The notes under the pieces are model-generated. The model did not search any database. It was not told the origin of the DNA and saw only the letters and a list, made by a program, of their open reading frames with translations. From Cercospora beticola (lineage: Eukaryota; Ascomycota; Dothideomycetes; Mycosphaerellales; Mycosphaerellaceae): DNA of 64,000 bases. Made by a program: the position numbers and the translations under genes. Shown piece after piece: positions 10,184-22,722 of the stretch (the first letter of the stretch is position 1; every line of letters starts with the position of its first letter). The DNA lies in the NCBI RefSeq assembly GCF_033473495.1, contig NC_088936.1, forward strand, positions 2,108,001 to 2,172,000, given 5' to 3'.

Positions 10184-13100
10184 TCAGATTCCACTTTTGA
10201 ATCCTTTCACCACATCCTCCAACATCCTCAACCCATAGTAATTAGCCACGTTCTCGTAAACCCTCAGCTCCTTCACGATCCTCCCTTTATCGACTGTTCC
10301 CACCCACTCTCCTGCGCAAGCACAGTGCTCCATGAACTCATTCGTCCGGATTCTTGCACACTTCTTACACTTCAAATCCTGGCTCATCCATTGCAGGCTC
10401 AACTTGCTGACATCCGCGAGTAAACGCTCTTCGATAACGAGTCGGGAGAAGACATTCGAACAGTTTTCGCAATTGGGTGCCAGGGTGACTTCATTCGCAG
10501 AGGATGAAGGCACACTGAGATCGACATCGCGGCATAAATCGATGTCTCTGGGGACGCAGCATTCAGGACACGATAGCTGTTTCAGACAGAGACTACTGCT
10601 GGGATTGGTGAAACTTCCTTCGGATGAGAACTCTCGAATATCGAAAAGGTGGAGTAGGTCTTTGCGCAGTAGACGCGCCTCGAGCGTGATAGTTTTGTCG
10701 AGAGACAGGACTTGCATGAGGCTTTTCACGAGCTCGAGGGCAGGGTTCTGCGGGTTCAGGTGTGAGCCTGGCATTGTTGGGAACGTCCAATCACTCAAGA
10801 GTTCTTCGTGCAAGGCCTCAGTGCGTTGTCGCTTGATCAATTGCTGGATCTGTTTCAACAGTGGTTTCGAGAAGCTCTTCTGCAAAACCGTGCCTGGCGT
10901 GGTCTGGTCATCCTTCTCGGAGTTGAAAATGCTCGCGTGGATGGGCAGTTGAGTAGCCCTTGGAATCGCACCGTTGGTGATTCCAGCCGGTCGCTTGCGG
11001 CCGTGCATGAGCTCAATGTATTCGACAACCCATTGATTGAACACAGGCTGAAGGATCGACGGCAGGAAAGTGGCAATTTGCCAGTGCATGATCGTGTCAA
11101 GCGTCTGCTCATCTTCCTCCACCACCTGCACGCAACCCTTACCGCCATAGTTGAATTCATCATACCAAGCAAGAAAGTCCCAGTATTCCGTGATGGCCAA
11201 ATCCAGAAAGTGGAAAGCCGGCTTGGTCGAGATCGTCTTGAGGATGTATTGGCTGTATGCATACGCATTCCCAACTTCTGCCTTACTGGTCTGCAGAAGT
11301 AATCGACCAGCATTCGCGAACACAACGTGAGAGCCAACCCGTCGGAACTCAGACATGAGCTGTTGGAACGCCTTCCGAGACATGACTTGCACATAGTAGT
11401 GCAGGTTCCGGTCGTAAAGACGAGAAGATGGTGATTCGACCCACCGTACAAGATGCTGCACTAGCACATCGGCCATACTGCTTCCACCAGCGTCGCAAGC
11501 CTCCGACCACCATGAGCGGACCATCTCACGAAGCGCATTGATGCCCGCGGAGGCGAAGGCATTTTCTGACTGGATCGTATGCGAAGTTTCGTCCAAGGCA
11601 TCTTCTTGTGCTCCAGCAGCAGAGACGCCTAATGGATCTCCTCCTGCACCCTCTGCCTCATTCAGGACAGCAGAAGACAGGATCGTGTTGATCGCCAAGT
11701 TCTTGACACTGAGATCAATGCACACTGATGAGTAGGTGCCAGGATTGTTGACAGAAGGCATCTCCACGACTTCCATTCCACCCAAAATGTCGTCTTTTTC
11801 ATGGCCAGCATGGTCGGGTCTTGCATCGTGTGACCACCAGAGCACAACTTTTTCCTTCTGCAAGCGGCGCGCGTATGCAATGTCGATCAGGAAACGGGGT
11901 TCGTCGACTTCGAGGTTGCAGAGCGGCACATTCCCATAACGAGCGAATTCCAGTAAATGATTCACCCAGGAGCCGAGATCGAGGTAGTGGTTGACCAGTC
12001 TCTTCGCAACGAATGATTGCCACCCCAGAGGGGGAAGTTGTTTGTCAGTCTCATCGGGCTTCAGTCTTAGTGATGGGATGTTCTGCAGAATCGGCAGATC
12101 ATGCATCAGCATCGTCGCGGAATGCGATTGTAGCACCAGCATGATTGGCAAAGTCTCTTCTTTCTGCATCTTCTTGACGGCGTCTCCGAGTTCTTGCAAC
12201 GCCCGTCGTTGCGTTGTCACCTGAACTGTCTTGAAGTGCAAGCTCTCTTGGTACTCAATGGTCGTCTGCCAAGGTTGACCACCGGTCTGCTCAAGCTTGC
12301 GAGCGAGCATTTCTTCGTAGATGCGATCCACATTTGGCATCCCCTGCTCACTACGTGCCCGGTTGAGTACAATGATCTTTACGTCTGCTTTCGTTGACGA
12401 GAACAGAGCATATATCTGTCTATCCCCAGCTGAAATGTGGTACAGAGCCAGGTAGCTGAAATTCGCAGAAGCCATATATGGCTTTTTTGGTGGCACCGTG
12501 CGTAGTGTCGACAAATCGAAACCCTGCTCCAAACCTTTGCCCAGGACACCTCGTTGGCTCTCGTCGAATGTGCAGACACATCCTAGCTCAAGCATCGCAC
12601 GCACATCAAGAGGCACCTGCCGCTCGTACACACCCTCTACGCTGGAGTGATTGAAAAGCATCGATAGCTTCTCAATCTCCTTGACGTAAACTTGCTCAGG
12701 CATAGTGAGCTTGAACAGGTGCGTGCTAGGATGGCCGTTGGGCAAGGTGTGGTTGACGATCTTCTCGGCTTTCACACCATCGACGGAAACGTCAGGTAGG
12801 TCGTCCTCTTTCAGGTTGAGATATACTTGTCGGGGCACGACAACTTTCAGCTGGTGTACCTTTTTGTCAATAAGCACGAATGCTCTGACTTCTCCAGGCG
12901 AGTCGGTCTCTCGGAGTTGTAGCACTTGCCAATCTGTGGTGTACAGTAGTTCTGCTTGATTTCGGAAGAAGGTTCCAATAGCATCAGTAGCGTCTTGCCT
13001 CTTCTCACCAAAGAGTTGTCGCCGTCTCTTTCTGGCCGCCTTTTGGATCTTCCACTTTTTCTTCTGATACTTCAGCCACCCAACGTAGTCTTCCGTGATG

Positions 13101-16100
13101 CTCGGCATGACTTCAGGCAAGCTGTCGAATGGATTGACTGGCGCGATTGGCTCGTCTCTCACTTTCCGCTTCTGGCTCGCGACAATCTTTGCAGCAGCTG
13201 CGGGTTTGAGCTTTGACATCGGGGTCGCGCCGAAATCCTCCAGATCGCCACCTGATCGCAACGGCTGCCTGTTAGCATCCAGCTCCTTCAGCGGCTGTTT
13301 CTGGAACATGTCCGTCATTTTGACCTGTTGAAACTTGTCTTCTTTCTGAGCAATTCTGCGATTCAGCCATTCTGGATGTGCAACTCGAGGGACAGGATTC
13401 TTGATCTTCTGCAAAGCGGCAGGAATCGTGATGAGTTTCTGAATGACAGAGCCGAGGCGCTCAAGATAGTAGTCCCAGTCGATGAGGTCTCTGGGATCCA
13501 TGGAGCCAGGATCCTCCTTCAACCATTTGCGCAGATAATAACGTTTGATCGAGTCCTCGGCAGAGAGAATAGCAACCGGTACTGCTCGCTCGGTGACGGG
13601 CGCGTTCTTTGGCCGCGACGAGATGATGTATTTGCAGTTCAGACCCTTGTCCTTCACCATCTGCTCGCCCAGAAACTCGGCCAGACGCTTTGCTGTGGTG
13701 ATAGCAGTAGATTTCTGCGCACCATACTCCTCAAGTGTCTTCGTCATGCTTTTGTTCTCGCAAATTAAGTCGATCAGCTCCTCGTCTGCAAGCATGTTAC
13801 CGTGCGAGTAGAGTACATCGAGCCACTTGTTCGCGACTTTAGCAACAGCGCCATACGTCTCAGCGAGTGTACTGCCTTCCAAGAAGAACTTGAAAATCTG
13901 CTGCTGAAAGATCTTGATCAGCCTGAGCTCTCCTCTTCGCTTGACTTCGAAGCCTTTCAGCTCTGCAAGCGAGCCATCATCGTTGAACACTGCATACCGC
14001 TTCTTCAAGTTCTTGTCCTCCTCTTTCGACGTAGGCAAGATCATGGCCTTGTATGGACCGTCAACTTCGAAGAAGATCGAGTTGTCGCTGTGCTTTTCAT
14101 ACTTGAAACTCGAGGGATCCACTAGCTCTTCGTACTGGTGATTGGTGAACTTGGCGTGGACAAGGTGGTTCAACATCGCGCAAGGATATGAAATAGCCAG
14201 TTTCTTCCCACCCTTCATCTTGAACGCAAAGTTCTCTGGGAATGTTGCAGGCAAGATACACCAGATACCATCAGTATCAAGCTCCAATGGTCGACCAACC
14301 CGTTCAACAATCTGACGTGCCATTTGGATGATACGGGCACCAGTCAAGCAGGTCACACCGGCCATTTCGAGCGAATACCATCGTGATCCCTTCCGCATGA
14401 CATATCCGTAGAAGGAGTTCAGAATGACTTTGTGTGCAAGCTGCAAAGAGTCATACAGAATGATCATCTTCTTCGCTTCATCGATCTCACTTTGTGCTGC
14501 ACCAGATTTTTCGAGCTCGGAAGTTTTGCCCTTCCATACTTTCTGCTTGCCCTTGAAATCGTATCGACGATCACGGAAGTCTCTGACTGTGTGGACATAA
14601 AACGGGTTCTCGCGTTGGCAGATAATGGCCTCCCGTTCGATGGTCTTTGTTTCGTGGATTTTGTGGTAAATCTTTTTGCTGTAGTCCGTCAATCGTTTGC
14701 GAACATGGCCAGTCTGTTCATCAAGGCTCAGATCTTGAAATGCTCGAGTAGCGCTATTCGCGCCAAATTTGCCAGGGAACTTTTCGTTCTCAAGCGCGTG
14801 TCGAATCATGTTGTACTCGTCGCGCTTCGCGGGCAAGAACTCTCCTCTCCACGACCAAGGCAATCGCCGGTCACAGGTTTTCCCAGGCCGATTGAAGTCA
14901 CAGGCTGCACAATCCGCCTCGTCAATCATGCTGTCGGGCTGTAATCGATTCGTCGTCATGATGTTCGGATACATGGATGCGACGTCCAGATGGTATATCA
15001 GTGGCCGTTCGCTCCTGTTGGGTGTCGTCTTGAGCTGCATTAGTCGGTCTACGATTTGCGCCTTGATCTCATCATAGTTCTCGACATCTTCAAATTTCTT
15101 CTTCTCCTCGACTTCGATTGTGAAACGCAATGCGGCGTCCAGGCCGTCCAAAAGCTCATCGATAGCTGTGGTGTCAATTGCAAAATTGTTCGGGATATCA
15201 CTTCGGAACACACCGCATTCGATACTCTCAACGTGGCCACCAACATAGGTCTCTGAATCCAGCAGATGTCCTTCCCAGAAGGCCTCTCGAGGTTGCACGT
15301 GCTTGTTCGGGAGCACAATCCCTTTCTGGTATGCCTGCACCATGAGCAACATCTCACACAGAGTTCCTGTGCCTTTGCGAAGGCAGTCGTCTGGTCCCAG
15401 CGGAATGATTGTGCAGAGGGAGAAAATGAACGGATGCACATATTTCATGTACAGATAATAAGTTGCCACGGCATCAGAGACGGAGTACTCTGCAAGTGTC
15501 TGTGGCCGTTCCTGCGCGTATGGTGTCATGAGTTCTGGGTCCAGCTCGTCCGGATCGTAGCCCAACTTGGCAACTGTGACAGCCTTCAGACCTCGCGATC
15601 CCTGTGGCAGGTAAGAATCTCGATTGACCCACGCAAAGGCGTCCATATGTGCGCAGTGCGTAGATTGGTAGACGTCTTCGCTGTTTTTTCGAAAGCCGAT
15701 CTCTTGGTACATATCCAGCCCGTGAACACTCGCTCGTGCCTCCACGAAAGGCCAATCGAAGAAATCTCCGTTGTAAGTCACCATGACTGTGGGTCGAGCT
15801 TCCTTGATGCAGCTGAAGAATCTCTCGATTACAGCTTCCTCATTCGGCTCATTGAAGATCATGAAAGGTCCTTCGAATTCAGGCTTCGGAGTGTAGTCAA
15901 AGTCCTCGATGTCTTCAGAGACTATTTCACGATTGGTGATCAAGAAACCTTGCCCATCAATCATGTACGATATCATCATGATCTGGTCGATAGCTGCATC
16001 CGGGAACTTCAGCGGCAGTTTTGTCGTCTCAATATCGTAGGCCATTACCACAGGATCCGCTCGTGTTAACCGATCTTCCAGGCCGCTCAATGTAATGTGT

Positions 16101-16897
16101 CCATGCTTCGCCTCCACGTTGTACCACTTCCCTATCCGAATGTCCAAGTCAATGACGACTCGAACGTGGTAAGGCACATCGTATTCTCGAATGTCCTGTA
16201 TGAAATCGCTTGCGTCTGCAATACCACCAGGTCGTCGGTCTCGTTCCGGTTCGTGATGATCCTCGAACAGATCAAAGCCCGCATTGGCACTCGCAACCTC
16301 GGCGTATGTGTCCATAGCTGAAACTTTGCTCTTATTCGTCTCCGCGATTGGCAGTAGGACGCGCCGTACAGCCAGTAAATCGGTGACATTGGCGAATGTC
16401 AATTTGAGGAATGTCCTTCGATAGCCCAGCAGGTGATTTGGCATCTTCAGGTCCTCTTTCTCGACCCTCTCCACCCCTCTGACTAGCCCCTCATGGGCTC
16501 TTCTTACCCACTCTTCCACTTCTGCCTCTCGCCCTTTCTTCACGCCGATGAGAAAATAGGGCTGGTACTCGACGCTCGCCTTGAACTGTTCCCCATCGTC
16601 GCCAATGAAGTAGAAGTCCACAGCAGCTCTCCCGCCAGGAACTTTCTCATCTTCAATGGCGGTACTGTGCATATTTATGAGCCATCCTACGCGCCTTTTC
16701 CCCGCCTCGAAGCGCTCGAATCCTTGCGCTTCATCGATTTTGTGGGCAAGTCTCGTGGCTTCTATACGTTCGTTTTGTTGTGTCTGTTCGGAGGATCGCA
16801 AGGTCGAAGCATCGACCACTCGCACCTTGCCTGCTTTGAGTGTATTCGACTTGTTGGCGCCGAATTTGGAGCGGCCTTCTTTGCGGCGAACAGGCAT
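10184..16897 (-). CDS. POL2: DNA polymerase epsilon catalytic subunit
   Basis: One uninterrupted 2237-codon frame, the full length expected for Pol2 (about 2200-2290 aa). Proofreading exonuclease motifs are intact: Exo I DIETTK (D288, E290), Exo II TYNGDFFDW (D378) and Exo III YSVSDAVATYYLY (D475). Polymerase motifs are intact: motif A DVASMYPNIMTTNRLQP (D638), motif B KVILNSFYGY (about 823-832) and motif C ELDTDG (D874, D876). Cysteines 663, 666, 675 and 760 match the [4Fe-4S] ligands of Pol2 (C-x2-C-x8-C, then a distant C). A PIP-like QVKMTDMF lies in the mid-protein linker. The inactive C-terminal half follows and ends in two zinc modules (CPEC...CENC and CKKC...CAC). It is the leading-strand replicase, which also acts in the S-phase checkpoint. 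It shares a 299 bp divergent promoter with COX20. Confidence 0.98.
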   Translation of the reverse strand: MPVRRKEGRSKFGANKSNTLKAGKVRVVDASTLRSSEQTQQNERIEATRLAHKIDEAQGFERFEAGKRRVGWLINMHSTAIEDEKVPGGRAAVDFYFIGDDGEQFKASVEYQPYFLIGVKKGREAEVEEWVRRAHEGLVRGVERVEKEDLKMPNHLLGYRRTFLKLTFANVTDLLAVRRVLLPIAETNKSKVSAMDTYAEVASANAGFDLFEDHHEPERDRRPGGIADASDFIQDIREYDVPYHVRVVIDLDIRIGKWYNVEAKHGHITLSGLEDRLTRADPVVMAYDIETTKLPLKFPDAAIDQIMMISYMIDGQGFLITNREIVSEDIEDFDYTPKPEFEGPFMIFNEPNEEAVIERFFSCIKEARPTVMVTYNGDFFDWPFVEARASVHGLDMYQEIGFRKNSEDVYQSTHCAHMDAFAWVNRDSYLPQGSRGLKAVTVAKLGYDPDELDPELMTPYAQERPQTLAEYSVSDAVATYYLYMKYVHPFIFSLCTIIPLGPDDCLRKGTGTLCEMLLMVQAYQKGIVLPNKHVQPREAFWEGHLLDSETYVGGHVESIECGVFRSDIPNNFAIDTTAIDELLDGLDAALRFTIEVEEKKKFEDVENYDEIKAQIVDRLMQLKTTPNRSERPLIYHLDVASMYPNIMTTNRLQPDSMIDEADCAACDFNRPGKTCDRRLPWSWRGEFLPAKRDEYNMIRHALENEKFPGKFGANSATRAFQDLSLDEQTGHVRKRLTDYSKKIYHKIHETKTIEREAIICQRENPFYVHTVRDFRDRRYDFKGKQKVWKGKTSELEKSGAAQSEIDEAKKMIILYDSLQLAHKVILNSFYGYVMRKGSRWYSLEMAGVTCLTGARIIQMARQIVERVGRPLELDTDGIWCILPATFPENFAFKMKGGKKLAISYPCAMLNHLVHAKFTNHQYEELVDPSSFKYEKHSDNSIFFEVDGPYKAMILPTSKEEDKNLKKRYAVFNDDGSLAELKGFEVKRRGELRLIKIFQQQIFKFFLEGSTLAETYGAVAKVANKWLDVLYSHGNMLADEELIDLICENKSMTKTLEEYGAQKSTAITTAKRLAEFLGEQMVKDKGLNCKYIISSRPKNAPVTERAVPVAILSAEDSIKRYYLRKWLKEDPGSMDPRDLIDWDYYLERLGSVIQKLITIPAALQKIKNPVPRVAHPEWLNRRIAQKEDKFQQVKMTDMFQKQPLKELDANRQPLRSGGDLEDFGATPMSKLKPAAAAKIVASQKRKVRDEPIAPVNPFDSLPEVMPSITEDYVGWLKYQKKKWKIQKAARKRRRQLFGEKRQDATDAIGTFFRNQAELLYTTDWQVLQLRETDSPGEVRAFVLIDKKVHQLKVVVPRQVYLNLKEDDLPDVSVDGVKAEKIVNHTLPNGHPSTHLFKLTMPEQVYVKEIEKLSMLFNHSSVEGVYERQVPLDVRAMLELGCVCTFDESQRGVLGKGLEQGFDLSTLRTVPPKKPYMASANFSYLALYHISAGDRQIYALFSSTKADVKIIVLNRARSEQGMPNVDRIYEEMLARKLEQTGGQPWQTTIEYQESLHFKTVQVTTQRRALQELGDAVKKMQKEETLPIMLVLQSHSATMLMHDLPILQNIPSLRLKPDETDKQLPPLGWQSFVAKRLVNHYLDLGSWVNHLLEFARYGNVPLCNLEVDEPRFLIDIAYARRLQKEKVVLWWSHDARPDHAGHEKDDILGGMEVVEMPSVNNPGTYSSVCIDLSVKNLAINTILSSAVLNEAEGAGGDPLGVSAAGAQEDALDETSHTIQSENAFASAGINALREMVRSWWSEACDAGGSSMADVLVQHLVRWVESPSSRLYDRNLHYYVQVMSRKAFQQLMSEFRRVGSHVVFANAGRLLLQTSKAEVGNAYAYSQYILKTISTKPAFHFLDLAITEYWDFLAWYDEFNYGGKGCVQVVEEDEQTLDTIMHWQIATFLPSILQPVFNQWVVEYIELMHGRKRPAGITNGAIPRATQLPIHASIFNSEKDDQTTPGTVLQKSFSKPLLKQIQQLIKRQRTEALHEELLSDWTFPTMPGSHLNPQNPALELVKSLMQVLSLDKTITLEARLLRKDLLHLFDIREFSSEGSFTNPSSSLCLKQLSCPECCVPRDIDLCRDVDLSVPSSSANEVTLAPNCENCSNVFSRLVIEERLLADVSKLSLQWMSQDLKCKKCARIRTNEFMEHCACAGEWVGTVDKGRIVKELRVYENVANYYGLRMLEDVVKGFKSGI

Positions 16898-17196
16898 GGT
16901 GAAAAGTGTCGTGTGGTCGACAGCCGGTCGGGCTGCTACTTGAATCGTCTATGTGGTCATTTCTGTCGTTATTCGTGGCTCGGCGGCGGTGATGTTGCGT
17001 GGACTCGTTGTTTTTAGCGGATGTTGAAGTCGAGATGAGCGCTTCGCGTCAAAGCGCGTCGAAACACGCGACGCCTCCCATCAATGCAACGCGCTCTTTT
17101 GCATCGGGAAAGTGAACCGAGCTTAGTCAGCCACTATTTTCACATGCATCATCGATTCGCGATTCGCGACTGCTCGCGACTGCAATCCATTCAGCC
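16898..17196. promoter_or_regulatory. Divergent POL2/COX20 promoter with CGCG boxes
   Basis: The 299 bp separate the two start codons. Four MluI-cell-cycle-box-like hexamers (ACGCGN in either orientation) crowd into 51 bp: TCGCGT at 17044, GCGCGT at 17054, ACGCGA at 17066 and ACGCGC at 17089. In yeasts the MBF complex binds ACGCGN upstream of replication genes, which suits POL2. That these sites work this way here is inference. Confidence 0.45.
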
Positions 17197-22341: not shown

Positions 22342-22533
22342 TGGCGAAGCAAGAGATGAAACAACTTTGTGTGACCTGATCCCGCAGCCGAAACGAAACG
22401 AAACAGACCGACACAGTCTGTGAGACCAAACACGAAGGGTGGATACCTCCTGCGGCCCATCTTCGCTTGCTTGTTTGAGCTGGAACAACAGTGGAGCAGC
22501 ATATTGGATTTGCAACTTGAGCCCTCCATCGAA

Positions 22534-22697
22534 GCATCGTTGGTTTAGTGGTAAAATCCGTCGTTGCCATCCACTTCACTTCGTCAGGAGATGAATAAGT
22601 GCGCCTCGACGGGCCCCGTGTTGTGAGTAGTAGCACCAGCATCATTATTACAGGACATGAAACTCTAACAGATCATCAGCGATTCACGGACGATGCA
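22534..22697 (+). tRNA. tRNA-Gly(GCC) with anticodon-loop intron and T-loop insertion
   Basis: After removal of two inserts the gene is a perfect 71-nt tRNA-Gly. The acceptor stem GCATCGT (22534-22540) pairs with ACGATGC (22690-22696), followed by discriminator A. The A box lies in the D-arm (TGGTTTAGTGG). The anticodon stem CGTCG (22559-22563) pairs with CGACG (22607-22611), with anticodon GCC at 22566-22568. The T-stem CCGTG (22616-22620) pairs with CACGG (22685-22689). Insert 1 (22570-22605, 36 nt) is a normal tRNA intron after position 37, with its own CACTT/AAGTG pairing. Insert 2 (22623-22679) splits the T-loop and is described separately. Pol III T-runs follow at 22710 and 22718. The gene lies 192 bp downstream of the RING stop codon on the same strand. 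Confidence 0.85.
22623..22679 (+). other. 57-bp spliceosomal-intron-like insertion in the tRNA T-loop
   Basis: Begins GTGAGT, contains CTAAC at 22665-22669 (branch A 11 nt before the end) and ends in CAG. Its length equals that of the protein-gene introns in this window. Removing it exactly joins TT to CGATT and restores a seven-base T-loop and the B box. It therefore looks like an intron insertion and not random decay. Confidence 0.75.
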
Positions 22698-22709: not shown

Positions 22710-22722
22710 TTTTTGCCTTTTT
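22710..22722 (+). terminator. Pol III terminator T-runs after tRNA-Gly
   Basis: Two runs of five T (22710-22714 and 22718-22722) start 12 nt after the tRNA discriminator base, as expected for a Pol III unit. Confidence 0.6.

Follow-up and report, generated by a model that had tools for sequence, protein, structure and literature searches.

Putative spliceosomal introns in tRNA-Gly and many other nuclear tRNA genes of Cercospora beticola

Can a transfer RNA (tRNA) gene be interrupted by an intron of the messenger RNA (mRNA) type and still yield a working tRNA? The question is raised by a 64,000-nucleotide (nt) stretch of the Cercospora beticola genome (NC_088936.1, positions 2,108,001 to 2,172,000; hereafter the window), in which direct reading and ARAGORN place a tRNA-Gly(GCC) gene with two introns on the forward strand (22534..22697). 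Its first exon (22534..22569) runs to base 37 with the A box intact and is followed, at the usual site after base 37, by an ordinary 36-nt anticodon-loop intron (22570..22605, delimited by ARAGORN). The second exon (22606..22622) extends from the 3′ strand of the anticodon stem to T-loop base 55, and the third (22680..22697) from T-loop base 56 to the discriminator. Between bases 55 and 56 lies a 57-nt insert (22623..22679) that starts with GTGAGT, ends with ATCAG and contains a branch-site-like CTAAC (22665..22669), of which CTAA is invariant in a six-row alignment and the A, at 22668, lies 11 nt before the insert end. The initial annotation had described this insert and taken it for a spliceosomal-type intron. 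Its place and anatomy are confirmed, paralogues included, and the classification is strongly supported and reaches far past one gene. We propose, as very probable, that the insert is a spliceosomal intron of the U2 (GT-AG) type, that its host tRNA gene works, that no fewer than 27 nuclear tRNA genes carry no fewer than 34 such introns, and that the insert is removed from a precursor tRNA made by RNA polymerase III (Pol III).

Standard tools overlook the gene. ARAGORN at standard settings and Rfam at the gathering score gave no match in the window; on the native locus ARAGORN returns no correct tRNA, and one setting yields a false, longer one. With 22623-22679 removed, the program calls tRNA-Gly(gcc) with the 36-nt anticodon intron.

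Searches of the window's own genome (36.07 Mb, 10 contigs) found 27 split tRNA genes with 34 inserts at 16 positions, all GT-AG and 51-61 nt long. Five genes encode tRNA-Gly(GCC): three are split at 55/56 (inserts of 57, 56 and 52 nt), two have no insert, and the exons agree in all five. Pattern searches, in which most other matches were non-tRNA and controls gave a similar or larger number of matches, found the 55/56 insert in tRNA-Ser(CGA) and tRNA-Leu(AAG) as well, and added two tRNA-Phe genes; together with one found by Rfam, these make three tRNA-Phe genes split at 53/54, one of which is additionally split at 25/26. The Rfam tRNA model, for which 62 of 905 first-look candidates were scored, gave 44 genome matches, 15 of them split by our reading. 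A probe set of fungal tRNAs retrieved three tRNA-Ile(AAT) genes and one tRNA-Pro(AGG) gene, each of these four being split, and a joined-exon search supplied a second tRNA-Cys. A Ser(GCT)-like locus (L087), a fragment (L046) and the locus L053 were left out of all counts. That fragment is a lone tRNA-Gly 3′ half with its own T-loop intron, downstream of the unsplit tRNA-Gly gene L003 (C9:1838927-1839215); by eye, the upstream flanks of two tRNA-Gly genes, L004 and L002, likewise hold partial or inverted copies of a tRNA-Gly 5′ half.

Read from the joined cloverleaf, the inserts lie at positions 4/5 (four inserts), 14/15 (two), 16/17 (two), 18/19 (one), 25/26 (two), 45/46 (one), in the variable arm (one), and at 50/51 (two), 51/52 (one), 53/54 (three), 55/56 (five), 58/59 (one), 65/66 (two), 68/69 (five), 70/71 (one) and 72/73 (one). 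Positions 4/5, 55/56 and 68/69 are reused in unrelated isotypes. Two Met(CAT)-like tRNAs in the set (L039 and L059) have long anticodon introns and a hairpin that look alike by eye and spliceosomal-type inserts that differ.

The tRNA loci were also screened against a control. Every 45-75-nt stretch that opened with a GT-type 5′ end, contained a branch-like motif and closed with AG was removed singly from 56 loci and ARAGORN was re-run, with the same motif reversed as the control (228 GT-AG against 236 mirrored candidates). Removal of GT-AG stretches improved the tRNA at 22 of the 56 loci and removal of mirrored stretches at two; 12 of the 56 came from insert-aware searches, and among the other 44, all supplied by the Rfam model alone, GT-AG removal improved 15 and mirrored removal two.

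Joining the exons restores tRNA structure. Given 13 split genes whole, ARAGORN missed 12 and misnamed one, and thus called none correctly; given their joined exons, it called a tRNA in 12 of 13. After joining, and with G-T pairs counted, the acceptor stem has seven of seven pairs in 26 of 27 genes and the T stem five of five in all 27. For the 12 inserts in or beside the acceptor stem, reading through the insert leaves 3-7 of the seven pairs and joining gives seven (six in tRNA-Ala); at a single one of these inserts read-through also yields seven. Between paralogues, 59-67 of 67 exon sites (the first 34 and last 33 bases) are identical, whereas the cores of same-position inserts share 53-73% identity, against 47-53% for shuffled sequences. 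Moreover, paralogues differ by paired base changes that bracket an insert, at 7-66 in initiator tRNA-Met, 6-67 in tRNA-Phe and 5-68 in tRNA-Cys, the last enclosing the 45/46 insert of one Cys copy. Outside the inserts, T-stem pairs have changed on both sides three times in initiator tRNA-Met and once in tRNA-Cys.

The inserts themselves are uniform. Their length is 54.9 ± 2.4 nt (range 51-61, n = 34), all 34 have GT-AG ends, 33 have G at +5 and 30 contain CTRAY, and the best branch-like A lies 10-14 nt before the insert end. Many inserts were found by searches that required GT-AG ends and a branch motif; no such requirement underlies the narrow length and branch distance, the length limits having been wider than the range found and the screens having allowed a branch A more than 20 nt from the end. 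Across 212,540 bases from 69 fetched loci (some of them overlapping, with exact repeats counted once and centres masked), intron-like patterns outside tRNA hits clearly exceed the mirrored control only at 46-61 nt (45 versus 13), and the insert length fits these host patterns, which here serve as a proxy for annotated mRNA introns. A group I or group II intron, which would have a catalytic core and a size of hundreds of bases, was rejected in view of the 51-61-nt size and the lack of any Rfam match in the window.

Several essential tRNAs have no unsplit gene among the best candidates scored in whole-genome searches with joined exons. This holds for tRNA-Phe (three of three genes split), tRNA-Cys (two of two), initiator tRNA-Met (two of two), tRNA-Ile(AAT) (three of three), the Met-like pair (two of two) and the sole genes found for Leu(AAG), Leu(CAG), Leu(CAA), Ser(CGA), Ser(TGA), Pro(AGG), Arg(CCT) and Ala(TGC). 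The same searches did recover unsplit copies of Gly(GCC) (two), Ser(AGA) (one) and Val(AAC) (one), and unsplit genes, which offer longer matches, should be easier to detect. An anticodon GAT is unusual for a nuclear tRNA-Ile gene; such a tRNA-Ile(GAT) (L013, C7:2750480-2750551) may substitute for the split Ile(AAT) genes. For Phe, Cys and initiator Met, the genome searches revealed no substitute. We consider it likely that this fungus depends on the spliceosome for translation: every gene found for initiator tRNA-Met, Phe and Cys, together with those for many other tRNAs, would need splicing of a Pol III transcript, often in addition to endonuclease splicing of the same molecule.

Which polymerase would make these transcripts? 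Transcription by Pol III is favoured, on the strength of upstream TATA words and downstream T-runs. The window gene has a TATA-like CATATT at -34 to -29 relative to its start (22500..22505) and two Pol III terminator-like T5 runs downstream (22710..22714 and 22718..22722), all on the forward strand. Between -45 and -22, a TATA or ATAT word is present in 15 of the 27 split genes and 14 of 28 unsplit ones, a comparison set from which three organelle-like loci were excluded; random stretches contain one in 9% of cases (p about 1e-9 for the split genes). U6 small nuclear RNA (snRNA) is a Pol III RNA, and the second U6 gene of this genome (L089, C7:2731380-2731780) contains three GT-AG inserts (49, 50 and 52 nt); when joined, it aligns to the other, unsplit U6 gene (L094) at a score of 139, and unjoined at 49. 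A Pol III RNA gene in this genome therefore carries such introns. 5S ribosomal RNA (rRNA), also examined for inserts, is represented by two full-length copies.

The explanation that survives best beside our own retains the spliceosome and changes the polymerase: the tRNAs would lie within RNA polymerase II (Pol II) transcripts and be spliced and then cut out of them. For the window gene, this would be the readthrough from an upstream RING gene that the initial annotation had offered as one route. The RING gene does end 192 bp upstream on the same strand, and the B box is broken in the five genes split at 55/56, including the window gene, whose best unspliced B-box match (8 of 11) is not above shuffled sequence, as had been anticipated from the split. 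However, TATA-like words stand ahead of split and unsplit tRNA genes alike, T-runs follow most split genes as they do Pol III genes, and U6 has the same kind of intron. We regard Pol II transcription, and with it the RING readthrough, as unlikely.

Introner-like elements are spliceosomal introns gained in fungal genomes, and a recent gain of this kind was another suggestion of the initial annotation, in which mobile introns would have inserted into tRNA genes. Two close tRNA-Gly copies, L002 and L003, do differ by the exact presence or absence of the insert while having most of the anticodon intron in common; insert gain or loss is therefore precise. Searches of the genome, however, brought no repeated family to light. 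The window's 57-mer has no other copy in the genome, a search with 17 of the 34 inserts returned for each no match besides itself, and same-position inserts of paralogues have diverged to near the identity of shuffled sequences. A recent introner burst is therefore very unlikely, and an introner-like family was rejected for the 17 inserts searched, there being no near-identical copies of them.

A further explanation is that the tRNA splicing endonuclease excises the inserts as archaeal-type bulge-helix-bulge (BHB) introns in unusual places. There are precedents: as described in PMC3978253, the red alga Cyanidioschyzon merolae has tRNA introns at unusual positions, more than one of them in some genes, and tRNA genes led by a TATA element; ectopic and multiple tRNA introns occur there, in the Guillardia theta nucleomorph and in some Crenarchaeota; and many of the nucleomorph introns reportedly have no defined BHB motif. 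The ectopic introns of these organisms are treated there as BHB or endonuclease-type, whereas the inserts here have GT-AG ends and a branch site and no canonical BHB. The canonical four-pair central helix occurs at none of the 29 testable junctions (five of the 34 inserts have an exon too short for the test) and a three-pair helix at three (10%), against 8% after shuffling of partners. Nor would BHB introns give a reason for the GT-AG ends, the branch motif and the tight length, and ordinary anticodon introns exist alongside the inserts. We rejected this explanation, which we consider extremely improbable, on the lack of the canonical motif.

The weakest alternative, dead tRNA copies struck by insertions, could appeal to the tRNA-Gly fragments near three Gly copies and is scarcely credible, because the scattered stem mutations expected of a dead family are missing from the five agreeing Gly(GCC) copies, paired changes preserve stems, exons are conserved while inserts diverge, and no unsplit Phe, Cys or initiator Met gene was found.

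Several observations weigh against spliceosomal introns in working, Pol III-transcribed tRNA genes. First, the anatomy is partly selected for, since many searches demanded GT-AG ends and a branch motif, and within the window alone the excess of intron-like patterns is weak (10 versus 5 at 51-61 nt, and likewise 11 versus 5 at 80-99 nt). Second, the set has weak members. The Pro(AGG) insert at 72/73 was accepted on anatomy, with no score gain on removal; the 51/52 insert of one tRNA-Ile gene (Ile_c), which starts with GTGAAT, was identified by eye; tRNA-Ala(TGC) retains one acceptor mismatch after joining; joined Leu(CAA), Cys_b and Ile_b are assigned different anticodons by ARAGORN and owe their names to comparison, in the case of Cys_b and Ile_b with their paralogues; and the isotype of the split Met-like pair is uncertain. 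Among the 22 loci improved in the screen, L053 was not accepted and Leu(CAA) (L038) was called under the wrong isotype. The excluded tRNA-Ser(GCT)-like locus L087 (C6:1925427) has two GT-AG inserts, and its 5′ acceptor strand would need a third, non-AG one. Third, one joined-exon search overlooked two short-exon split genes already known, and another missed one Phe gene when given that gene's own exons; because only the best candidates were scored and this Phe gene was missed, unseen copies are possible.

The Pol III signals, too, are incomplete. Four or more T residues occur within 60 nt downstream of 22 of 27 split genes, compared with 28 of 28 unsplit ones; the five misses are three Ile genes for which less than 60 nt downstream was fetched and the two genes of the Met-like pair. 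Twelve genes are split in the T arm: three Ile genes retain an entire B box in their DNA, three Phe genes and Arg match it at 9 of 11, and the five split at 55/56 have lost it. The score of 9 of 11 owes some bases to the insert's own AG or GT and is not above shuffles, about a fifth of which reach it. By an uncontrolled count, genes split in the D loop keep most of the A box, likewise by way of insert bases. Loss of TFIIIC as the reason why inserts are tolerated is unsupported, a TFIIIC B-block protein being encoded in the genome. TATA-led transcription offers a parallel: PMC3978253 puts forward TFIIIC-independent tRNA transcription from TATA-led genes in C. merolae, which in this respect resemble those studied here, and mentions TFIIIC-independent transcription in vitro of yeast tRNA genes with a TATA box.

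With spliceosomal removal from a Pol III precursor as the preferred reading, the following path may be envisaged. Pol III would start at the upstream TATA element, aided by the A box and, where it survives, the B box, and would transcribe the whole split gene. The spliceosome would then excise the GT-AG intron or introns of 51-61 nt, so that the cloverleaf can form; the tRNA splicing endonuclease could next remove the ordinary anticodon intron where one is present; and trimming of the ends would leave a normal tRNA. Splicing itself, the spliceosome as its agent, Pol III as the polymerase and the order of these steps are what we infer from the genes.

How far does this depart from known systems? 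A 2017 paper (PMC5832005) names U3 and U6 as the sole small structured RNAs in which interruption by an intron was, to that date, known to be frequent. The inserts described here resemble those of fungal U6 snRNA and U3 small nucleolar RNA in being mRNA-type introns in small structured RNAs, U6 among them a Pol III product; unlike them, they reside in tRNAs, in 27 genes and at 16 positions, a gene carrying one or two inserts in addition to any anticodon intron. Canonical anticodon-loop introns are present at the usual site in many of the same genes, and the inserts lie elsewhere and have another anatomy. Spliceosomal introns occur in ascomycete rRNA genes, and these are likewise mRNA-type introns in an RNA of translation, but in rRNA, not tRNA. 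For one fungus, the spliceosomal introns of the nuclear ribosomal DNA have been tabulated (PMC11782384). From introner-like elements the inserts differ in forming no repeated family among the 17 of 34 searched. No report of spliceosomal introns in tRNA genes was found in the open-licence literature, among the matches listed. The intron type is thus known and would work like U6 introns; the tRNA home, the scale and the dependence of key tRNAs appear to be new.

Nuclear tRNA introns are regarded as the task of the tRNA splicing endonuclease. If our proposal is true, a further class of tRNA intron exists, and the cell could couple its tRNA supply to splicing capacity; moreover, since the mRNA spliceosome would rebuild dozens of tRNAs, a block of splicing would stop translation directly. 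The proposal also raises the questions of how the spliceosome acts on short Pol III transcripts and joins tRNA pieces down to 4 nt, how Pol III tolerates disrupted internal promoters, and by what route introns get into genes without a reading frame. More practically, standard tRNA finders would overlook or misname a large share of such a tRNA set.

Two other loci deserve mention. In the window, a long open frame on the reverse strand (10187-16948) encodes the DNA polymerase epsilon catalytic subunit. Its product scores 2348 bits with one of two full-length groups of PDB chains and 2047 bits with the other, the two groups being budding yeast and human; together with the intron anatomy, this difference makes a fungal source likely. 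An AT-rich cluster of organelle-like tRNAs (L022, L030 and L033) lies within a large contig at C2:3502591-3503121 and is perhaps an inserted mitochondrial segment.
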